35,716 bases of DNA, from positions 1-35,716 of the forward strand of contig RPRB01000030.1 in NCBI GenBank assembly GCA_003818285.1, written 5' to 3'. Every line of letters begins with the position of its first letter. Positions within the stretch are counted from its first letter, which is position 1. Both the position numbers and the translations under genes were made by a program. Of the stretch, positions 7,010 through 17,660 are shown piece after piece. This DNA comes from Myxococcaceae bacterium. Lineage in GTDB: Bacteria > Myxococcota > Myxococcia > Myxococcales > Myxococcaceae. The notes beneath the pieces were generated by a model. It did not search any database, was not told the origin of the DNA, and was given only the letters and a program-made list of their open reading frames with translations.

Positions 7010-7468
7010 GCGCGCCTGTCTAGTGCCTCACGCCAGAACTGCAGGGCCAGCGGGGAGAAAAATGACTCGTACCACTCAGAATGCATCTTGAATTCCTCAC
7101 CACGTCGTGGACACGGCACACGACGGCCCGGTCGCGGTGTGTCGCGCGGCCGGCGACGTCTTCCGTCTCGTCCTCACGCACGGCCGGCGGCCGGCGGGAG
7201 GTCACTCGCGGACAGGCAGAGGCAACCCGGGGAGTCGACCTGCCGGCACGGCAGGCGTCATCCCGCTGCTTTCCTTAAAGGAGGCGCCTCGCGCGGATCA
7301 AGCCGACGTCGACGCCGGTGTCGACCCGGCCGCGGGTCGTTCGGATGACCTGCGAGGCCCGCGGCATTCCGCCGGATTGCACTCACCGTGCAGCGAGCGG
7401 GCGGCGTGACGCAAGTTCCCAGAAGAACTGGTGCGCATGCCCGGGCGAGGGCGATTAGAAGGGCTGGC
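7010..7468. other. Intergenic region between divergent antiporter and translocase operons
   Basis: About 460 bp without a convincing gene; the open frames here have unnatural composition. It must hold promoters for both directions, but no clear -35/-10 pair stands out. Visible structures are a perfect 7-bp hairpin with a 3-nt loop (CCTGCCG/CGGCAGG, 7239-7255), a perfect Shine-Dalgarno-like AAAGGAGG (7277-7284) not followed by any nearby start codon, and the 10-bp palindrome GAGGCGCCTC (7281-7290) overlapping it. Confidence 0.5.
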
Positions 7469-8815
7469 ATGAGCGCCGAGCCGCGTGCTCCGGGCTGGCC
7501 GGAGCGCCTGCTGCGTCCCTTCGCCGAGGTCCGGGCCGGTGAGGCGTGGGCCGCACTCGTCCTGACGGCGACCATCTTCCTCATCCTGACCGCGTACTAC
7601 CTGCTCAAGGTCATCCGCGAGCCGCTCATCCTGCTGAGCGGCGGGGCGGAGGTGAAGGCCTACGCCGCCGCGGGCCAGGCGCTGCTCCTCATCCCGGTGC
7701 TCCGCGCGCACGGAGCCATCGCCCGGCGCGTCAGCCGGCTGAAGCTGATCGCCATCATCTTCCTCTTCGTCGCCTCCAACCTCCTCGTCTTCGCGGCGCT
7801 CTTCCGAGCCGGCGTCTCCATCGGGCTGTCGTTCTATCTCTGGGTCGGCACGTTCAATTACCTGCTGGTCGCGACCTTCTGGAGCTTCGCCAACGACGTC
7901 TACACGCCGGAGCAGGGCAAGCGGCTCTTCGCCATCATTGGCGTGGGCAGCTCCGTCGGCGCGCTGGCCGGGGCAGCCCTGGCCAGCTTCCTGCTCAGGA
8001 AGCTCGGCCCCCTCGAGCTGATGCTCGCCTCCGCGGCGCTGCTGGTGATCACCGTCATCCCCTTCGCCCTGGTCAACGCTCAGAAGCAGTGCTGTCCCAA
8101 GGATCGCGGCCGCGAGATGGCGAAGGATCAGCCCCTGACCGGCGAAGGCGGGTTCCATTCGCTGATCAACGACCGCTACCTGCTCCTCATCGGCTTCATC
8201 ACCGTGCTCGCCAACTGGGTGACCAACTCCGGTGAGTACGTGCTGGACAAGACGCTCATCGAGGTCGCCCGGTCCAGCGCCATGGTCGACCCAGGCAAGT
8301 TCGTTGGCCAGTTCAAGGCCGACTACTTCTGGTGGGTGAACCTGATCGCGGTGATCGGCCAGTTCTTCGTGGTCTCCCGCGTGCTGAAGTACCTCGGCGT
8401 GGGTTCGGCTCTTCTGATCCTGCCCGTGGTTTCCATGGGCGGTGCGGTGGCCATCGTCCTCTTCCCGGCGCTCGCTCTCATCCGGGTGGCGAAGATCGCG
8501 GAGAAGGGCGTGGAGTACTCGCTCGAGACCACCGCGATCAACGCGCTCTACCTGGTCGTCTCCCGCGACGAGAAGTACAAGGCCAAGGCGGTGATCGACA
8601 CCTTCCTCGTCCGCGCGGGGGACGTATGCGCGGCGGTGTCGATCTGGATCGGCACGCACCTCGGCGTCCGGACCACCGGCTTCGCCGCGCTGAACGTCGT
8701 GCTCACCGCGACCTGGCTCTTCACCGCCTGGCGCGTCCGTTCCCTCCACCTCGTCCGGAGCGGCGCGATCGAGCCTCGTCCTCTCACCGCCGCCACCGCG
8801 GCTCCCTCCGTATGA
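7469..8815 (+). CDS. Nucleotide translocase (NTT/TLC, Npt1/Npt2-like) membrane protein
   Basis: A 448-residue polytopic membrane protein with about 10-12 hydrophobic segments. The opening (TAYYLLKVIREPLILLSGG), FYLWVGTFNYLLVATFWSFANDVY and GKRLFAIIGVGSSVGALAG are characteristic of bacterial relatives of the ATP/ADP translocases, a branch of the major facilitator superfamily. The classic members exchange ATP for ADP in obligate intracellular bacteria and plastids; relatives in free-living bacteria have no settled function. I chose the ATG at 7469 because AGAAGGG precedes it; an in-frame start further upstream has no support. Its stop overlaps the start of the next gene (ATGA), and the three genes 7469-12454 look like one operon. 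Confidence 0.85.
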   Translation: MSAEPRAPGWPERLLRPFAEVRAGEAWAALVLTATIFLILTAYYLLKVIREPLILLSGGAEVKAYAAAGQALLLIPVLRAHGAIARRVSRLKLIAIIFLFVASNLLVFAALFRAGVSIGLSFYLWVGTFNYLLVATFWSFANDVYTPEQGKRLFAIIGVGSSVGALAGAALASFLLRKLGPLELMLASAALLVITVIPFALVNAQKQCCPKDRGREMAKDQPLTGEGGFHSLINDRYLLLIGFITVLANWVTNSGEYVLDKTLIEVARSSAMVDPGKFVGQFKADYFWWVNLIAVIGQFFVVSRVLKYLGVGSALLILPVVSMGGAVAIVLFPALALIRVAKIAEKGVEYSLETTAINALYLVVSRDEKYKAKAVIDTFLVRAGDVCAAVSIWIGTHLGVRTTGFAALNVVLTATWLFTAWRVRSLHLVRSGAIEPRPLTAATAAPSV

Positions 8816-11523
8816 GCGCCTCCCCTCGATCGCCGGGGAGCCCCATCCACCGTGCGCTCCCTTTTGCCGCGCTCCTCTTCCTCCTGGTCGGCGCGCACGC
8901 GCTGCTGGAGACCGCCCGCGACGGGCTGTTCCTCACCGAGCAACCCGTCAGCCGGCTCCCCTGGCTGTACCTGGGCGTGACCGCCGGGGTGCTGGTGCTG
9001 ACTCCGCTGCAGCGCAGGCTCTGGGGAGGACGGAGCAGCGTCGCTCTCCTCCTGACCCTCCTCGGCGCGTGCGCCGTGACCCTGGCCTTCTGGGCGTTCG
9101 CGGCCGCGCGCGGGGCGGTGCTCGGCTTCTACGTGTGGACGGCGCTGTTCTCCTCGCTGATCTTCGTTCAGTTCTGGCTCGTGGCCGACGAGGCGTTCTC
9201 CGTCGACGAGGCCAAGCGCACGTTCGGCTTCATCGCCGCCGGTGGGCTCCTGGGCGCGGTGTCCGGGAACGCCGTGGCACGAGTGGCCCTGGGCTTCACC
9301 GACCCGAGAAACCTTCTCCTCGTCTCCGCCGGCGTCACCCTGGCCTCGGCCGCCCTTTCCCAGCTGGCGACCCGGGCGAGCTGCGCGGGTCACGTCGCCC
9401 AGCTGGAGGTGATGGCTCCGCGGGCCATGCCCGGGTACGTGAAGCGGGACCCCTACCTGCGGCTCCTGGCGGTGCTGGCGCTCCTCACGGCTGCCAGCGC
9501 CACGCTCATCGACTACCTGTTCAAGGCCGCGGTCGCCGCCGACACGGCGCCCGAGCGCATTCCTCGCATGGTCGCGAACGTCTACCTGGGACAGAGCGTG
9601 CTCGCCCTGGTGGTGGAGCTGGTGCTGGTGGGCTTCCTGCTCCGGAACACCGGGGTGACCCGGAGCCTCGCCCTGCTTCCGGTGGTGGTCCTGGCCGGAG
9701 CCTCCGGGTACGCGGTGGGCGCGGGCCTGCTGGCGATAGTGGTCCTGAAGACCCTCGACGGAGGGCTCCGCCCGTCGGTGTACCGGGTGGGAACCGAGCT
9801 GCTCTACCTCCCCATCGGTCCGGCCGAGCGGCGCGTGGTGAAACCCTCCATCGACACGCTCGGGCAGCGCGGGGGACAGGCCCTGGCCTCCCTCTTTCTC
9901 CTGGCGTTGCCTCTCTTGCCCCAGCAGCAGCAGATGGGGGCAACGACCGTGGGTCTCGCCGTGGTCGGCCTGGGCTGGGTTCAGGCCACCTGGATCCTCC
10001 GCCGCCGCTATCTCCAGCGCTTCCAGCGGGAGCTCGGTGCGGGACGGGTCTCCACTCCCGACATCGGAGGGCTGGACCTCGCCTCGGCGGAGGTGCTGGT
10101 CGCCGCGCTGGGCGCGTCCAGCGTGCGTGAGGTTCTCACCGCGCTCGACGTCCTCGCCGCGTCGGGGCGCCTGCGCCTGGTGCCCTCGCTGATTCTCTAC
10201 CACCCCGATCCGCTGGTGGTGCGCTCCGCGCTGCGCTACCTCGTCCCGGCCCGGCGACCCGACGTGGACGCCATGGTGCCCTTCCTCCTCCGGCACCCGG
10301 ATGATCAGGTCCGGGCGATCGCCGTGGAGCTCTGGGCGAGGGCCGGTCACGCGCCCGACGCGCTGCGAGCCGCCCTCGCGGACAGGAGTCCCCGGGTCCG
10401 GGCCTCGGCGCTCATTGCCCTCTCCGCCTCCGAGAAGGACGGGGAGGCCCGGAAGACTCTCGAGGCCATCGCCGCCGGTCCGGATCTGGAGGCGCGCCGC
10501 GCGCTCGCCTGGGGCCTGGGAAATGCTCCCCGCGAGGACCTGGTCCCGATCATCAAGACGCTGTTCCTCTCCGGAGACGTCGAAACACGCCGCGAGCTCC
10601 TCCGGGCAACCCCGGCCCTCCCTGCCCCTCCCCCCGAGCTGGTCTTTCACCTGGTGGAGCTGCTGGTCGAGCCCCGGCTCCGCTCCGGGGCGAGCGATGC
10701 GCTGGTTGCGATGGGAAGGCCGGCGCTGGTCGAGCTGGAGCGGCTCCTGCTCTCTCCGGACACCCCGTACGCGCTTGCCCGGGAGCTCCCTCCCTCCATC
10801 GCCCGGTTTCCCGCCGAGTCCGCGGCGGAGGTGCTGCTGAAGCGCCTGGTCCAGCCCCGCGGAGGTCTCGATCGCTTCCGCTCCCTCCGTGCGCTGAGCC
10901 AGCTGCGGCGAACCCACCCCCGTCTGTCCCTCGATCGAGCAGCGCTCGAGACGGCCCTCGATCTGGAGCTGCGGTCGGTGTTCCGGAACCGGGCGCTCCG
11001 GAAGGCGGGCACCGGACTCGGCCTCGCGCAGGGTGACGGGGCGGAGCCGGCGGGCACGCTGCTCCTCGACCTCCTGGGGGATCGGGCCCGGCGGGGAACC
11101 GAGCGGGCGTTCCGCGTCCTGAATCTCTTGTTCCCCGACGAAGGGCTGGAGCAGGTGTACCTGGGCGTCCGCTCCGAGGACCGGCGGCGTCGCGATGCCG
11201 CGCAGGAGGTGCTGCTGGAGCTCGTCCCGGCGCGGTGGCGGGAGCCGGTGCTCGCCCTCCTCGAGCCGGCCGCCCTGGTTCCCTCCTACGTCCCCAGCGT
11301 GCTGGGGGCCTCTCCCACGCCCGAGAGCTTCGTGGCCGCGCTGCTCGACCATCGCAGCGAGGTGGTGCGGCTGCTCACCCCCTGCCTCGCGCGGGAGCAG
11401 GGCTGGACCGGGGTGGTGACGCGGCTGCGCGCGGGGCCGCGATGCGCCGACGCCGAGTCCGCCGCCACCGTCGATCGTGCGATCGAGCAGCTCGAGCGCG
11501 GGCCCGAGGTGGTCCATGCCTGA
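8812..11523 (+). CDS. Nucleotide-translocase-like membrane protein fused to HEAT-type repeats
   Basis: A 903-residue two-part protein. Residues 1 to about 400 are a second translocase-like membrane domain with about 10-12 helices (ARDGLFLTE, FYVWTALFSSLIFVQFWLVA, GFIAAGGLLGAVSGNAVARV), clearly related to the upstream protein but divergent. After RRRYLQRFQREL the chain is soluble: residues ~430-720 are alpha-helical hairpins of HEAT/PBS-lyase type (DPLVVRSALRYLV, HPDDQVRAIAVELWARAG, DRSPRVRASALIALSAS, DLEARRALAWGLGNA), with a degenerate helical tail to residue ~890. The repeats would lie in the cytoplasm and probably bind a protein partner, for which the adjacent cNMP-domain protein is the obvious candidate. 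It starts at an ATG overlapping the previous stop. Transport substrate unknown. Confidence 0.83.
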   Translation: MSASPRSPGSPIHRALPFAALLFLLVGAHALLETARDGLFLTEQPVSRLPWLYLGVTAGVLVLTPLQRRLWGGRSSVALLLTLLGACAVTLAFWAFAAARGAVLGFYVWTALFSSLIFVQFWLVADEAFSVDEAKRTFGFIAAGGLLGAVSGNAVARVALGFTDPRNLLLVSAGVTLASAALSQLATRASCAGHVAQLEVMAPRAMPGYVKRDPYLRLLAVLALLTAASATLIDYLFKAAVAADTAPERIPRMVANVYLGQSVLALVVELVLVGFLLRNTGVTRSLALLPVVVLAGASGYAVGAGLLAIVVLKTLDGGLRPSVYRVGTELLYLPIGPAERRVVKPSIDTLGQRGGQALASLFLLALPLLPQQQQMGATTVGLAVVGLGWVQATWILRRRYLQRFQRELGAGRVSTPDIGGLDLASAEVLVAALGASSVREVLTALDVLAASGRLRLVPSLILYHPDPLVVRSALRYLVPARRPDVDAMVPFLLRHPDDQVRAIAVELWARAGHAPDALRAALADRSPRVRASALIALSASEKDGEARKTLEAIAAGPDLEARRALAWGLGNAPREDLVPIIKTLFLSGDVETRRELLRATPALPAPPPELVFHLVELLVEPRLRSGASDALVAMGRPALVELERLLLSPDTPYALARELPPSIARFPAESAAEVLLKRLVQPRGGLDRFRSLRALSQLRRTHPRLSLDRAALETALDLELRSVFRNRALRKAGTGLGLAQGDGAEPAGTLLLDLLGDRARRGTERAFRVLNLLFPDEGLEQVYLGVRSEDRRRRDAAQEVLLELVPARWREPVLALLEPAALVPSYVPSVLGASPTPESFVAALLDHRSEVVRLLTPCLAREQGWTGVVTRLRAGPRCADAESAATVDRAIEQLERGPEVVHA

Positions 11524-12454
11524 GCTGGATTCCGCCACCCTCGCCGAGCGGGTGCTGCGGTTGAGCCGGTCTCCTCCGTTCGACCGGATGTCGGTCGAGG
11601 ACCTCACGCTGCTGGCCGCCGCGGGCCGCGAGGAGGTCATTCCTACCCGGACGGTCCTGGCGCGCGCCGGAGAGCGCGCCTCGGCGCACTACGTCCAGCT
11701 CGCCGGCCGACTCCACGTGATGCTCGACCTGCCCGATCTGGTTTCAGCGGCGGGTCAACCGGGCGTGGGCGCGCTCTCGGTTCTCGGCGGCGCCGTGCTG
11801 CCTGCCGATCTGGTGGCCGAGGCAGGATCGGTGCTCCTGGTCCTGGACCGAGACGCGCTGATGGGCGTCCTCGAGGAGCACGGCCATGTGGCCCGGTCCG
11901 TCCTCCGGCTCTTCGCGCTGAAGCTCTTGGAGGCCCGGCGCCTCGCGCCGGTGGCACCGCCGCCCCCCCGGCCACCTCCCACCGTCCGCCTGGACCTGGT
12001 GTCGAGGATGCTGACCCTGCGCGATGCGCTCGGGCTCGGCATGGACGGCATGGCAACCATCGCCCGCCTGGCCCGGGTGGCGCGGGCGCGGCAGTACGAG
12101 GCGGGCTCGATCGTCGCGAGCGAGGACCAGCCGGCGGACGTGCTCGTTCTCCTCGAGGGTTCGCTGGAGCTCATATCCCCCGAAGGCACCACGCGGACCG
12201 TTCGCCCTGGCGAGGTGCTGGGCTTCGCGCAGTCTGTCGCCGGCGTGGCCGCGGATGGCCAGCTCCTCGCGACCTCCGAGTCCACGGCCCTGGTGCTCCC
12301 TCACCGCGAGCTGACCGAGGACATCGAGGACGACGACGCGCTCTGCCTGGAGCTCATCCGGAGCTTCGCGGCGCAGCTGTGGACCGCGCTGAGCGCGGCG
12401 CGGTTCGACCGGAGGCTGTGGGAGCCTCAGCCTCAGTCTCAGCCCGGCGGTTGA
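11516..12454 (+). CDS. Protein with two degenerate cyclic-nucleotide-binding-like domains
   Basis: A 312-residue soluble protein. Two CRP-type beta-roll domains can be traced: residues ~20-150 (FDRMSVEDLTLLAAAGREEV, ALSVLGGAVLPADLVAEA) and ~180-300 (YEAGSIVASEDQPADVLVLL, EGSLELISPEGTTRTVRPGE), joined by a Pro-rich linker (PPPPRPPPT). The second keeps a PGEVLGF element of the phosphate-binding cassette, but neither has the arginine that normally clamps the cyclic phosphate, so ligand binding is doubtful. There is no DNA-binding helix-turn-helix, which argues against a transcription factor. Its ATG overlaps the end of the HEAT-fusion gene by 8 bp, so it is co-translated and probably regulates or stabilises the translocase pair. 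Its 3' end overlaps the opposite-strand gene by 16 bp. Confidence 0.78.
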   Translation: MPELDSATLAERVLRLSRSPPFDRMSVEDLTLLAAAGREEVIPTRTVLARAGERASAHYVQLAGRLHVMLDLPDLVSAAGQPGVGALSVLGGAVLPADLVAEAGSVLLVLDRDALMGVLEEHGHVARSVLRLFALKLLEARRLAPVAPPPPRPPPTVRLDLVSRMLTLRDALGLGMDGMATIARLARVARARQYEAGSIVASEDQPADVLVLLEGSLELISPEGTTRTVRPGEVLGFAQSVAGVAADGQLLATSESTALVLPHRELTEDIEDDDALCLELIRSFAAQLWTALSAARFDRRLWEPQPQSQPGG

Positions 12455-14091
12455 TCGTTCTCCGGCCGATCGAGGCCGACGACCCGGAGCGGCTCACCTT
12501 CGAGCAGATGCACCCGGAGGGGGAACTGCCCGGCGCGCCCGGTGGAGAGGTCGAGCACGCGCTGGCCCTCGCCGAGGTCCGGAACCGTCACGCACAGCTC
12601 GGCGGGCCCCTGCGGTGAGACAGGCAGCGCCGCCGCCGAGTCAGCCGACAGGTAGAGCTTCGCCACGGGTGCGGGCGCGGCACCCAGGCCGACGGCGTCG
12701 GCCCGGTCCTCCACGCAGAGGCGTCTCCCGTCCTTCACCTCCGGCCGGGTGAGGGAGGACAGCCGGAGCAGGTACCGGCGGAGGATCCGGTCGCGCCGGC
12801 CGCGGAGGATGCGTTCCAGCTCGTCGCGGATCAGCGGGTCATAGAGGTGCGCCTCGTCGATGACGGCCGACAGGGAGGCGTCATCGAGATGAGAGATGAT
12901 CCGTGCCATCCACGCTCCGTCGGCCTCCTCCATCGCCGAGAATGCCGTGTTGGGATAGCCGACGTGCCAGTCCTCCGGCACGAACTCGCGATCGTCGAAG
13001 TAGCCCCAGATCGGCCCCGCCGGACCGAAGCTCGCGCGCTCCCAGGGGCGCTCGATGGCGCCGAAGGTGATGAAGTCCGCGCCCATGGCACCCCAGTCGA
13101 TGTAGTAGGTGTAGCCCACCCGCCGGGAGACGCTGTCCCAGTCCAGCAGGCCCCCGAGGGTGTCTCCCCAGTCGATGAGGTAGTGCTCGACGTGGCCACG
13201 CCCGTCGGGCTGTTCGATCCAGACCGCGAGCGTGTTTTGCGAGCGCGCGTCGTGGTGGTTGGTCCAGGCGCCGAGGAGGCGGGAGCCGCGGAGCTCGCGC
13301 CGGTCCTGGTGGTCCACGACGTCGTTGGGATCATCGCCCCGCGTGCCGTCGTAGAGCCACGGGCCGAGGGGCTTCCCGGGCAGGAACTCGCTGGCCAGGG
13401 CGCGGACGGTGCCGTCCTTCTCGCGGGGGAGGTGCGCCATCAGCTCGAGGATCCGCTCCCGGGTCAGGGTCTTCCCGCCCGGGTCCTTGATCTCCTCGGT
13501 GGGCAGCTCCAGCTCCTCGGTGCGCACGTGCACGATGCGGTTGCAGGGCCCCTGGAAGCCCGCGGCGAAGTACAGCCGGCTCCCCACCACGTCGCCGGTC
13601 GAGGCGCGGCCCCACTGCTGGACGGCGTCGAACTTGAGGACGTGGACCTTCCCCGACGAGGTCTTGATCCGGAAGCCGGGGTTGGCGCCGTCGATCTTCA
13701 CTCCCACCACCTTCCAGGGGTGGTCCTCGCTCGGCGAGAGTCCGGTGCACGGCCCGCGGGCGATCTCCTGGGGGGTCATCGGTTGCCGGCCTAGGCGATT
13801 GACGAACCAGCTCGAGTCGGGGACCTCGTCGAGCGCGTTGACGTTTCGCGCCGGCCGCCCGGTCTCGAGGAGCCACACGTGGCTGAGCGGGCGGAAGAGG
13901 ATGTGATCCGCGCCATCCCAGTACAGCGGAACGAAGGACTGCTCCGGCTTCGGCCGGAACGGACGCCGGTCGTCGTCCTCCCAGAGCACCGGCTTCGTGG
14001 AGAAGGGTCGGGCGCCGCCGCAGGCCAGGAGACCGGCGAGGGCGAGCGCCGCGACCGGGGCGAGCGCCGCACCGCGTCCCTGGGGTATCAA
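12439..14091 (-). CDS. Lipoprotein with a HipA/Fam20-like (pseudo)kinase pattern
   Basis: A 550-residue protein that I do not recognise as a named family. The N-terminus is a lipoprotein signal (ALALAGLLACGG, lipidated Cys at 24). The body has the landmarks of a HipA/PI3K/Fam20-type kinase in the right order: KVHVLKFD (K153, candidate ATP-binding lysine), SEFLPGKPLGPW (hinge-like, 234-245), WTNHHDARSQNTL (H279-x-D281-x4-N286, catalytic-loop pattern) and HYLIDWGDTLGG (D307-W-G, a DFG-like metal site). The C-terminal ~110 residues look like a separate beta domain. The start is a TTG at 14091 six bases from the divergent PAP2 start; a GTG at 14130 is the alternative and would overlap it. Function is inference; it could be a pseudokinase. 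Confidence 0.72.
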   Translation of the reverse strand: MIPQGRGAALAPVAALALAGLLACGGARPFSTKPVLWEDDDRRPFRPKPEQSFVPLYWDGADHILFRPLSHVWLLETGRPARNVNALDEVPDSSWFVNRLGRQPMTPQEIARGPCTGLSPSEDHPWKVVGVKIDGANPGFRIKTSSGKVHVLKFDAVQQWGRASTGDVVGSRLYFAAGFQGPCNRIVHVRTEELELPTEEIKDPGGKTLTRERILELMAHLPREKDGTVRALASEFLPGKPLGPWLYDGTRGDDPNDVVDHQDRRELRGSRLLGAWTNHHDARSQNTLAVWIEQPDGRGHVEHYLIDWGDTLGGLLDWDSVSRRVGYTYYIDWGAMGADFITFGAIERPWERASFGPAGPIWGYFDDREFVPEDWHVGYPNTAFSAMEEADGAWMARIISHLDDASLSAVIDEAHLYDPLIRDELERILRGRRDRILRRYLLRLSSLTRPEVKDGRRLCVEDRADAVGLGAAPAPVAKLYLSADSAAALPVSPQGPAELCVTVPDLGEGQRVLDLSTGRAGQFPLRVHLLEGEPLRVVGLDRPENDQPPG

Positions 14092-14097
14092 CGGCCG

Positions 14098-14808
14098 GTG
14101 GACGATTCGCGGACCCTGAACGACGAGCACCGGAGGCGATGGCTGGCCAGAGCGGTGCGGGACCGCCTTCGCCGGCACCGTCGCGGACTCGTGGAGCTGT
14201 TCCTTGGGGTGCTGGTTCCGCTCTGCGGCCTGGCGCTGCTGGCGCGCTGGGTGGTGCATCCCCAGCCGCCGCCATGGGACCTGGCCGTGCTCGGGTGGAT
14301 TCACTCCTACGCCACTCCCGGGCGGGACCGGGTGGCGGTCGGGATCACCGACCTCGGGACCTGGGGCGGCGTGACGCCGATCAGCATCGCGCTGCTCTCC
14401 TACCTCCTCTTTCGCCGGCGGATCGCCCTGAGCCTGTTCGTCCTGCTGGCGATGGTGGGTTCGTGGATCCTGAACGATGCCGCGAAGGCCTTCTATGGCC
14501 GGGAGCGGCCCGCGCTCTGGAACTCGGCCACGCGAGCGATGTGGTTCGGGTTCCCCAGCGGACACGCGATGGCGTCCATGGCACTGGGCACGGTGGTCAC
14601 GATCCTCGCCTGGCGAACCCGCTTCCGGTGGGCGGTGCTCGCGCTCTCGGCGGTCTTCGTCCTCGCGGTGAGCGCCTCGCGCCTGTACCTCGGAGTCCAC
14701 TATCCCTCGGACGTCATCGCGGCCTGGCTCGCCTCTCTGTCCTGGGTGATTGGCCTGCGCCTGCTCGTGTTTCCTAGAGCGCATAGGTCACCCCGAACGC
14801 GAGGCTGA
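14098..14808 (+). CDS. PAP2-family membrane phosphatase
   Basis: A 236-residue integral membrane protein with about six helices and the complete PAP2 signature: KAFYGRERP (KX6RP), FPSGHAMAS (PSGH) and SRLYLGVHYPSDV (SRX5HX3D), so it should be catalytically active. Family members remove phosphate from lipid phosphates such as phosphatidic acid, phosphatidylglycerol phosphate or undecaprenyl pyrophosphate; which one is used here cannot be told. The basic N-terminus (RRHRR) precedes the first helix. No ATG fits; GTG at 14098 is the best start. The gene starts six bases from the divergent lipoprotein gene and its 3' end overlaps the opposite BamA-like gene by 35 bp. Confidence 0.87.
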   Translation: MDDSRTLNDEHRRRWLARAVRDRLRRHRRGLVELFLGVLVPLCGLALLARWVVHPQPPPWDLAVLGWIHSYATPGRDRVAVGITDLGTWGGVTPISIALLSYLLFRRRIALSLFVLLAMVGSWILNDAAKAFYGRERPALWNSATRAMWFGFPSGHAMASMALGTVVTILAWRTRFRWAVLALSAVFVLAVSASRLYLGVHYPSDVIAAWLASLSWVIGLRLLVFPRAHRSPRTRG

Positions 14809-16384
14809 AGGAGGTCAGGCGCAGTCCTTGACTGAAGGGCTCGGTGCCGATGCCGACGACGAACTGGAAGTTGCTCGCGCCGAGGATGGACGCGGTGCGG
14901 ACGCCCAGCTCGGCCGAGAGCCGGAGCGCGTCCCAGCGGAAGTTGCGCAGGTGCGCATCGAAGACGTTCCCGAAGCTCACCCCGGCGACGCCGTCGAGGT
15001 AGGCGAAGACCGGCCAGCGCCAGGAGAGCTGTGCGCCGAGGGCGCTGCGGTCCCGGAGCCGTCCGCGGAGGAAGCCGACGAACGGCTCGGCGCCGCCCAC
15101 CGTGACCAGCTGCCAGAAGGGGACGGGCTCGCTGCCCAGCGGGTCGGCGAACTCCGCCAGGACTCCCAGGCTGAGCACCCGGCCTTTCCCGGTGACGTCC
15201 CACGACCCCTCGACACCGGCGCCGTAGCGGATCCACGAGCGGTCGAAGCCGCGGGTCGTGTCCACCGAGGGGGCGGCGGCCACGCCCACCCGGACCCCGC
15301 TCCGGTTGATGTCCGGCGAGCGGGTGTCCAGCGACGCGCGGATGAAGAGCTCGGCGGCGGTGGTGTTCTCCTGGTATCCCGGCGGGGGCGGAAGCTCACC
15401 GCGTTCGACGCGCTGGGTGAGTGTCGGGTCGCTGCAGCAGGAGTACTCGCGGAACACCGTCCGGGTGAGGCGGGCCCCGGTCTCGACCCGTGCCTGTTTC
15501 GCGGCGTAGAGATAGCTCAGGGAGCCGCCGACGACGTCTGTGCCGTAACGCGACTTGAAGGTGTCCGGCGTGAGCGATCCGATCCCGAAGTAGAGGTTGT
15601 CCGGCCGCCGGTTCCAGTGGCCCTCCAGGGCGATCGAGCTCTCGTTGGTGAAGCGGTACCGGTCTCCGAGGCCGATGGTGATCCAGTTGGAGCCACCCCA
15701 GGCGAGATCCGCGGTCACCTTGTTTCTGGCGACGAAGGTGTCGTCCCAGAAGAAGTGGAGGCCGATGCTGGGGCGGAAGCCAAAGTTGAGGAAGAAGGTG
15801 GGGAAGATGCCGCCCTTGTGGTCCGGGCCGAAGGCGAAGAAGTTGAAGACGGCGGGGCCCCAGTCGCCTTTCTCCGCGGCGGTGGAGAGTGCCCCGACGG
15901 GGACGCGGATGACGTACTCGGTGACCAGGTAGACCGGGATGAGGATCACCCGGGGGACCCAGATCAGCACCTCACCCGCGGTGGGAGGCGGTGGCTCCTG
16001 GCCGCGGTAGTCCGGCACGGGGCGCTTCGGGGGCGGCTCGGTCTCGGACTCGGGCGGAGGCGAGGTGGCGGCGGCGGGCTGCGCGGCAGATGCGGCCGGT
16101 GCCGAAGCGTCCGGCGGGGTCTGTCCTTCCGGGGAGGAGGCCGTCGAGGAGGGTGCCGGGGCGGACGCCGGCGGTGAGGAAGGTGACGAGGAGGAGGGCG
16201 CTGCGCCAGAACCGGCCGGCGAAGTTCCCGGCGTCCCGGGCGGCTGCTGCTGGTCCGCCCGTGCGATGGACGGGCGAACCGCGGAACCGACCAGGATGGC
16301 CCACAGCCCGATCGCGAGCGCGCGGCGCGAGAGCGCTCGTTCCTTCCTGGCTCGGAACCGCGCGACCGCCGTCGCTGGGCCCAT
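14774..16384 (-). CDS. BamA/TamA-like outer-membrane barrel protein with Ala/Pro/Ser linker
   Basis: A 536-residue protein. Residues 1-45 form an export signal (ALAIGLWAILVGSAVRPSIARA). Residues ~46-130 are a low-complexity linker rich in Pro, Ser and Ala. Residues ~145-170 (EVLIWVPRVILIPVYLVTEYVI) are a hydrophobic segment, and the rest is amphipathic beta strand resembling the surface-antigen (Bac_surface_Ag/Omp85-like) barrel. No POTRA domains are present, so it is not BamA itself. A strong ribosome site (GGGAGG, 8-9 bp ahead) fixes the ATG at 16384, although the frame is open further upstream. It probably acts in the outer membrane; role unknown. A perfect palindrome lies in its promoter region. 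Confidence 0.8.
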   Translation of the reverse strand: MGPATAVARFRARKERALSRRALAIGLWAILVGSAVRPSIARADQQQPPGTPGTSPAGSGAAPSSSSPSSPPASAPAPSSTASSPEGQTPPDASAPAASAAQPAAATSPPPESETEPPPKRPVPDYRGQEPPPPTAGEVLIWVPRVILIPVYLVTEYVIRVPVGALSTAAEKGDWGPAVFNFFAFGPDHKGGIFPTFFLNFGFRPSIGLHFFWDDTFVARNKVTADLAWGGSNWITIGLGDRYRFTNESSIALEGHWNRRPDNLYFGIGSLTPDTFKSRYGTDVVGGSLSYLYAAKQARVETGARLTRTVFREYSCCSDPTLTQRVERGELPPPPGYQENTTAAELFIRASLDTRSPDINRSGVRVGVAAAPSVDTTRGFDRSWIRYGAGVEGSWDVTGKGRVLSLGVLAEFADPLGSEPVPFWQLVTVGGAEPFVGFLRGRLRDRSALGAQLSWRWPVFAYLDGVAGVSFGNVFDAHLRNFRWDALRLSAELGVRTASILGASNFQFVVGIGTEPFSQGLRLTSFSLAFGVTYAL

Positions 16385-16790
16385 CGGCCGACCCTCCCGT
16401 CCGGAAACCGCCTTGGCTAGCCAAGCACACGTGAGGGGGTTGCGGCCCGGGCAATGCCGGCGGACAGTCCAATTAAGGGGGGCGCCCGCCCGACCCCGGC
16501 CACGGTCATACTCGCCGGTCCGTGGACGGGGTGACAGTTGCTCCAGCGCTGGACGTACGCCGCCCGAGGAGCCTCGCCTCTGCCGGAGGGGGGTCGTGAC
16601 TTCTGGTTGCACCTCGTCACGCCCGGGCGAGGTCACGGGCCCGCTCCGGGCTGCGCGCGGACTCGCGCCCCATCGCCGCGCCGGCGGCCCGGGCGTGAGT
16701 GATCGCGTCCGCCGGTCGATCGGTCTCGAGGAGCGCCAGGGCAAGCGGGCGGCCGTGCAGCGAGCTCCTTGGCGCGACATAGATTCGCCC
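16385..16790. other. Divergent intergenic region between barrel gene and ferredoxin-MBL gene
   Basis: About 405 bp with no gene I can support; the open frames across it are extensions of the flanking frames or antisense shadows. It contains the 14-bp palindrome at 16412-16425 and an inverted repeat built on CCTCG/CGAGG with GTCAC repeats (about 16613-16635). Promoters for both flanking genes must lie here, but no clear -35/-10 pair is visible. Confidence 0.45.
16412..16425. promoter_or_regulatory. Perfect 14-bp palindrome, possible operator
   Basis: CTTGGCTAGCCAAG is a perfect inverted repeat about 28 bp upstream of the barrel gene's start codon, where a dimeric repressor or activator could bind. 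No regulator gene is adjacent, so the binding protein is unknown. Confidence 0.35.
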
Positions 16791-17660
16791 ATGGCCCGCC
16801 TCAGTGCCCGGCTCGCGGAGAACGCTCCCGGCGGCTTCTTCGTCGACGACAGCTGCATCGACTGCGGCGCGTGTCGGGAGATCGCGCCGGAGACGTTCGG
16901 TCGGTCGCACCGGCGCGGGCAGTCTTACGTCACCGCTCAGCCCGAGGCCGGTGATCGCGAGCTGCGCGCGCTGATGGCCCTGGTCGCCTGCCCCACGGCG
17001 AGCATCGGCACCTCGCCCAAGCGGCCGCTCGGCGCCGCGCTCAGGGCCTTCCCCGAGCTTCTGGAGGACGACGTCTTCTCCTGCGGGTGGCACTCGGAGG
17101 CGTCGTACGGCGCGTCCTCGTATCTGATCGTGCGACCGGCGGGGAACGTGCTGGTCGACTCCCCCCGTGCCTCGCGGCCGCTGCTCGAGCGGATCGAGGG
17201 GCTGGGTGGGGTCCGGACGATGGTCCTCTCCCACCGGGACGACGTCGCCGACCACGCCGCCTTCGCGCGCCGCTTCCGGTGCGAGCGGGTCATGCATGCC
17301 GCCGACGTGGGCGCGTTGCCCATCGAGCGGCGGATCACCGGAACGGAGCCCGTGGCCCTCGACGACGATCTCACCGTCATCCCCGTGCCCGGTCACACCC
17401 GGGGCTCGATCGCGCTCCTGTACCGGGAGAAGTTCCTCTTCACCGGCGACCACCTGTGGTGGGACGAGGACGACCACCGGCTCGACATGGGCCAGGGGGT
17501 CTGCTGGTACTCGTGGCCCGAGCAGCTCCGCTCTCTGGAACGGCTCCGCGAGCTCCGGTTCCAGTGGGTGCTCCCCGGCCACGGGCAGCGGTTCCGCGCG
17601 GAGTCGCCGGCGGCGATGCGTGCCGCGGTCGACGAGGTCGTGCGTCGCCTGGTGCGGTAA
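16791..17660 (+). CDS. Ferredoxin domain fused to a metallo-beta-lactamase-fold hydrolase
   Basis: A 289-residue cytoplasmic protein. Residues ~15-75 are a single-cluster ferredoxin domain: C22, C25, C28 (SCIDCGACREIAPE) and C67 (VACPTASIG) can hold one [4Fe-4S]. Residues ~95-285 are a metallo-beta-lactamase fold with SHRDDVADH (H148, D150/D151, D154, H155), PGHTRGSI (H202), FTGDHLWWDEDD (D220) and LPGHGQ (H264). The first metal motif reads HRDDVADH instead of the usual HxHxDH, so one histidine is replaced by aspartate. Ferredoxin-MBL proteins of this kind occur in cyanobacteria, plants and various bacteria, with unclear reactions; redox control of a hydrolase is the natural hypothesis. The gene is convergent with the EamA gene, 6 bp away. 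Confidence 0.88.
   Translation: MARLSARLAENAPGGFFVDDSCIDCGACREIAPETFGRSHRRGQSYVTAQPEAGDRELRALMALVACPTASIGTSPKRPLGAALRAFPELLEDDVFSCGWHSEASYGASSYLIVRPAGNVLVDSPRASRPLLERIEGLGGVRTMVLSHRDDVADHAAFARRFRCERVMHAADVGALPIERRITGTEPVALDDDLTVIPVPGHTRGSIALLYREKFLFTGDHLWWDEDDHRLDMGQGVCWYSWPEQLRSLERLRELRFQWVLPGHGQRFRAESPAAMRAAVDEVVRRLVR

Follow-up and report, generated by a model that had tools for sequence, protein, structure and literature searches.

The locus and its genes

The window analysed here is the whole 35,716-nucleotide stretch of contig RPRB01000030.1 from a Myxococcaceae bacterium (assembly GCA_003818285.1; 5.8 Mb, 502 contigs), which is contig 55 of that assembly in our genome search. It contains a gene for an exported lipoprotein with a likely kinase domain, hereafter referred to as KIN, together with genes for an outer-membrane barrel (OMP), a phosphatase, two transporters of the ATP/ADP translocase type (NTT) and a cyclic-nucleotide-binding protein:

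7388..8815, plus strand: NTT1, ATP/ADP-translocase-like transporter (PF03219, E 1.2e-8)
8818..11523, plus strand: NTT2, NTT-HEAT fusion transporter (PF03219 and PF13646; NTT profile match 8818-11520)
11477..12454, plus strand: protein with a cyclic-nucleotide-binding domain (cNBD) after NTT-HEAT (PF00027, E 1.8e-14), its 3' end overlapping the 3' end of KIN
12439..14091, minus strand: KIN, exported lipoprotein with a likely HipA-like kinase domain and a C-terminal beta-sandwich-like domain
13165..13173, minus strand: D307-W-G of KIN, the DFG equivalent
13234..13257, minus strand: H279-x-D281-x4-N286 of KIN, the catalytic loop
13288..13341, minus strand: R251-x-DD-x-ND-x3-H-x2-RR-x2-R268, the KIN family signature, just ahead of the predicted helix alpha-E
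13627..13635, minus strand: K153-F-D155 of KIN, the strand beta3 lysine motif (VHVLKFD)
14020..14091, minus strand: signal peptide and lipobox of KIN (..LAGLLAC24)
14139..14777, plus strand: PAP2-superfamily phosphatase (PF01569, E 2.4e-19)
14774..16858, minus strand: OMP, Omp85-superfamily-type outer-membrane barrel without a recognised POTRA domain (by profile homology)

The KIN gene is read from 14091 to 12439, starts with a TTG codon and encodes 550 aa; the product begins with LIPQGRGAALAPVAALALAGLLAC followed by GG, a lipoprotein signal with Cys24. The kinase domain would extend over approximately aa 100-440 and the beta-sandwich-like domain over approximately aa 447-541, the fold being only weakly modelled. 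A first-pass annotation, made from the sequence alone, had placed a gene of 550 residues at 12439-14091 without giving its strand. These coordinates proved exact and the strand is minus, the plus-strand reading being ruled out by two stops. The minus-strand frame, on a point about which that annotation was silent, remains open up to 14784 (781 aa). This longer version was rejected because homology begins near its aa 256, close to the lipobox, and because the extension is antisense to the plus-strand PAP2 gene.

Conservation of the KIN family

The KIN gene was clearly identified in seven of the 195 genomes of the phylum, in which paralogues are frequent, and in one named MAG, with an eighth genome giving a marginal match (E 9e-4); two public relatives come from MAGs named Myxococcota and Polyangiaceae. 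No KIN homologues were found in the plasmid and viral collections searched. The alignment comprised 16 sequences from eight Myxococcota genomes: the window protein and 15 relatives with 30-63% identity to it. Cys24, K132, G135, G139, K153, D155, R251, D253, D254, N256, D257, H261, R264, R265, R268, D281, N286, H303 and D307 were invariant in all 16, G309 was present in 15, and position 279 was occupied by H, N or G. The spacing of the motifs was nearly constant (K-D 122-131, D-N always 5, D-D 25-30).

The first-pass annotation had proposed a lipobox followed by three kinase landmarks, K153, H279-x-D281-x4-N286 and D307-W-G. The lipobox held, since the cysteine and a lipobox-type context are found in 16/16 sequences, so that the criterion for a bacterial lipoprotein is met. 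The landmarks held too, with the exception that H279 is not invariant. They represent more than chance, because C24, K153, D281, N286 and D307 are invariant in 16 sequences at near-constant spacing. The joint conservation of K153, D281 and D307 across homologues had been named beforehand as the test that could refute the claim, and the claim survived it, as every sequence keeps all three. The alternative of a pseudokinase, also raised at that time, is disfavoured because no catalytic residue has ever been lost in the 16 sequences. One point against the reading of KIN as an active kinase is that the glutamate which kinases usually carry in alpha-C is not invariant in this alignment.

The KIN tree contained three clades, of 9, 4 and 3 members, and several of its inner forks were weakly resolved. 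All nine members of the first clade have Cys115 together with Cys183, whereas sequences of the other clades have neither. Cys459 and Cys500 also occur as a pair, with one shifted case. Such cysteines, coming and going together, suggest disulfides and therefore an oxidising compartment. The earlier proposal that the protein lies outside the inner membrane is thus supported by the lipobox and by two co-varying cysteine pairs.

A third KIN copy in the genome of the window (locus L022, G000:C82, 5627-7320) is broken. Only C-terminal pieces remain, in two places, without the catalytic half and without an OMP match, and a PAP2 gene adjoins them.

Relationship to HipA-like kinases

Searches of Pfam and NCBIfam with the window KIN protein gave no match. 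The curated cut-offs of PF20613 (HipA_2) and PF07804 (HipA_C) were not reached, and only one of the 16 members touched PF20613 (E 0.06). The statement that no characterised family could be recognised therefore held, as no curated family was found for KIN. HipA_2, HipA_C and CotH (PF08757) alignments were then built from proteins of the same phylum and compared profile against profile with HHalign. KIN matched HipA_C at 65.5% (E 5.8e-5, score 45.9) and HipA_2 at 44% (E 2.3e-4, score 38.0). Reversed KIN profiles reached no more than 0.35% (score at most 19.6), column shuffles, forty per target, no more than 0.75% (score at most 20.8), and unrelated profiles no more than 0.5%. The HipA_2 alignment pairs VLKFD with VVKFR, FLPGKP with YLPRSV, the NHHDARSQN loop with NVDRTPKN and YLIDWGD with WLIDHGA, so that K153, D281, N286 and D307 are all in register. 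The HipA-type likeness proposed at first is thus independently supported by the profile comparison.

The first-pass annotation had also suggested other likenesses. The comparison with CotH was negative: KIN gave only 0.8-1.2% against the CotH profile with HHalign and no Pfam match, whereas the positive control, CotH against HipA_C, gave 78-90%, and membership of CotH is ruled out on this basis. With regard to the Fam20-type likeness, Fam20C and Fam20A appeared only among non-significant Foldseek matches (E 0.27-0.48) of a low-confidence model. A PDB sequence search with the single KIN protein returned chance matches only. In the profile search, armadillo matches were rejected as chance arising from summed repeat scores, and a match to CtkA was weak (E 0.027) and limited to C-terminal helices.

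A two-lobe structure had been the other check proposed. The single-sequence AlphaFold model was uninformative (pLDDT 35), and a model from an alignment of only three sequences reached a pLDDT of 45. The latter shows an N-lobe-like order (beta-beta-beta3 with K153-helix-beta4-helix-beta5-long helix), followed by further helices and by a C-terminal beta-sandwich that is better modelled (pLDDT ~70-80). However, Foldseek with this low-confidence model retrieved nothing significant from the PDB, kinases included, the best matches being Ig-like domains. The kinase relationship thus rests on profiles and landmarks and is an inference from sequence, the fold not having been shown independently. With this reservation, the conserved K/D/N/D set and a profile similarity above all controls make it likely that KIN belongs to the HipA-like kinase superfamily.

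An Omp85-type barrel encoded with KIN

By profile match, each of the 16 full or near-full KIN loci carries an OMP gene immediately upstream of KIN and in the same orientation. In two of them no more than a fragment of OMP is left before the contig ends, and in L025 no more than a short stub (18.6 bits). OMP and KIN abut or overlap in most loci. The window copy of OMP gave no Pfam match on its own, and its assignment to Omp85 comes from profile homology, three relatives matching PF01103 (E 6e-13 to 1.6e-6). The window copy probably starts downstream of 16858, at about 16384, and several OMP members have a Pro-rich linker ahead of the barrel.

Only in the window is the pair split by an antisense PAP2 gene; in the other loci it is contiguous.

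Transporter and phosphatase neighbours

The NTT profile from the window matches solved ADP,ATP carriers (9j3n, E 1.4e-20; 9j3j, E 2.1e-14). NTT genes lie within 8 kb of KIN in four loci (the window, L023, L026 and L006). NTT, OMP and KIN form one operon-like row on a single strand in L006 and L023; the window NTT genes are convergent with KIN and not co-operonic. The four loci, out of about 17, all belong to one of the three KIN clades, in separate lineages within it. A dedicated ATP supply therefore cannot be general, and other ATP sources must be possible, since most KIN loci lack an NTT gene. PAP2 genes were found near KIN in five loci: the window (domain match at G000:C55:14434-14772), L006 (two genes), L026, L027 and the broken copy L022. 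In L034 (7743-8909) and L035 (11565-12743), OMP is directly preceded by a gene for a calcineurin-like phosphoesterase (metallophosphoesterase), and in L027 and L023 the genes flanking KIN/OMP include glycosyltransferases.

The genomes carry about 4-9 NTT and 1-7 PAP2 genes each, as tallied by hand for a Poisson test. For all KIN loci combined, 0.14 NTT-linked and 0.14 PAP2-linked loci were expected by chance within 8 kb, against three (Poisson 4e-4) and four (Poisson 1.6e-5) observed without L006. Both linkages are thus above chance, although the Poisson values are optimistic because the test was designed with the data already in view and assumes that the loci are independent.

In L023 (14280-15650), L029 (2576-4174) and L031 (433-4032), OMP/KIN or NTT have a gene for a Hanks-type Ser/Thr kinase as a neighbour. 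Such kinases are common in the phylum, so this neighbourhood has not been shown to be enriched.

A putative extracytoplasmic kinase system

We consider, with a modest preference over the alternatives taken together, that KIN is an active extracytoplasmic kinase representing a new family of the HipA-like branch within the protein-kinase-like fold, placed at the outer membrane with an Omp85-type barrel partner and, in some lineages, an ATP/ADP exchanger. Its activity, substrate and ATP source are inferred. KIN would be made with a lipoprotein signal, exported and lipidated, and would most likely be held at the outer membrane beside the co-encoded barrel. This location is an inference from the absence of Asp at position +2 in 16/16 sequences; the +2 sorting rule comes from E. 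coli, and its applicability to the KIN host is itself inferred. Beyond the inner membrane, KIN would then bind ATP and transfer phosphate to a substrate in the envelope or at the surface, neither ATP binding nor catalysis being more than inferred. The first-pass annotation, which had not seen the neighbourhood, had remarked that such a protein would have to work without cytosolic ATP, and the adjoining ATP/ADP-translocase genes provide a possible answer. In the subset of loci with an NTT-type exchanger, this transporter may export ATP and take back the ADP that KIN produces. This direction of transport is also inferred, and import rather than export of nucleotides by NTT-HEAT remains possible. 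Adjoining PAP2 or calcineurin-like phosphatases may reverse or complete the chemistry of KIN.

A bolder reading, which we regard as no more than possible, is that of a self-contained phosphorylation system outside the cytoplasm, in which an inner-membrane ATP/ADP exchanger would feed ATP to the periplasm, the outer-membrane lipoprotein kinase, partnered by the Omp85-type barrel, would use it on a surface or envelope substrate, and exported phosphatases would reverse the modification. If this is true, bacteria would have an equivalent of the kinase system of the eukaryotic secretory pathway. Kinases are rarely considered in the bacterial periplasm, because this compartment is generally assumed to contain no ATP. 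A conserved exported kinase family always paired with an Omp85-type barrel and partially linked to an ATP/ADP exchanger would make extracytoplasmic phosphorylation in Gram-negatives testable, and would also suggest a role for NTT-HEAT-cNBD transporters and for POTRA-less Omp85 barrels. In the open-access literature on extracytoplasmic, HipA-type or Omp85-related proteins, we found no title or abstract describing an association of kinase-lipoprotein, Omp85 and NTT.

Alternative explanations

The leading alternative, although an unlikely one, is that the kinase fold of KIN serves another chemistry, either AMPylation, as in SelO-type pseudokinases, or the phosphorylation of a glycan or lipid with PAP2 enzymes as metabolic partners, the substrate being perhaps lipid A, a lipid carrier or a surface glycan. 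In its favour, PAP2 enzymes, which are membrane phosphatases of lipid phosphates, are encoded beside KIN more often than expected, glycosyltransferase genes surround KIN/OMP in two loci, and in the alignment HipA_2 has nothing that corresponds to the invariant R251..R268 signature. However, our data identify no substrate, and glycosyltransferase genes are common and were not shown to be enriched.

It seems very unlikely that KIN is instead an accessory subunit, i.e., a structural partner of the barrel like the Bam lipoproteins, which has kept a nucleotide-binding fold in a regulatory or pseudokinase role, while the barrel would insert a cargo or export it to the surface, KIN itself being one candidate. 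The strict OMP-KIN pairing favours this view, and Omp85 complexes typically include lipoproteins as partners (PMC4104836). However, pseudokinases usually lose catalytic residues, and the K, D, N and D of KIN are invariant across deep divergence.

Less likely still is a scavenging role in a predatory or scavenging bacterium, in which NTT would import nucleotides from lysed cells, phosphatases would strip the phosphate and KIN would use external ATP or be only loosely connected: Myxococcota do include predators, and nucleotide import is the function of those NTTs that have been characterised in intracellular bacteria (PMC5381601), but most loci have OMP-KIN and no NTT, and the one-strand NTT-OMP-KIN rows suggest a functional tie of NTT to KIN.

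Comparison with known systems

The proposed active kinase resembles HipA_2 and HipA_C in a profile match running from the N-lobe to the catalytic loop. HipA proteins are, however, cytosolic, whereas KIN has a lipoprotein signal and disulfide-type cysteine pairs, an additional beta domain at its C terminus and a signature that is specific to the family and invariant in it (RxDDxNDx3Hx2RRx2R), and it remains below Pfam thresholds. With the Fam20 kinases of the secretory pathway it would share a kinase fold acting outside the cytosol, with the caveat that this fold is weakly modelled. Unlike them, KIN keeps the D-x4-N loop and is a lipoprotein of bacteria, paired with a barrel of the outer membrane, and no significant sequence or structure match connects the two. 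CotH belongs to the same broad atypical-kinase group, as judged from the positive control, but KIN does not match its profile and the genome of the window has no CotH match.

The order NTT-HEAT then cNBD seen in the window (7388-12454) has been described among NTT, NTT-HEAT and cNBD transporters (Major et al. 2017, PMC5381601), the function of NTT-HEAT proteins, and that of NTT-HEAT-cNBD transporters in free-living bacteria, being unknown. The sections of that paper bearing on these systems do not, however, tie them to an exported kinase or to an Omp85 barrel. The nearest description for OMP is the Omp85 'noNterm' subfamily, a barrel without recognised POTRA (Heinz and Lithgow 2014, PMC4104836), from which it differs in its strict pairing with a kinase-like lipoprotein and, for two of the barrels, in the L6 motif. 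The Omp85 L6 signature, RGF or RGY, is kept in most of the partner barrels, but the window copy has VGF and its paralogue at L021 has AGF.
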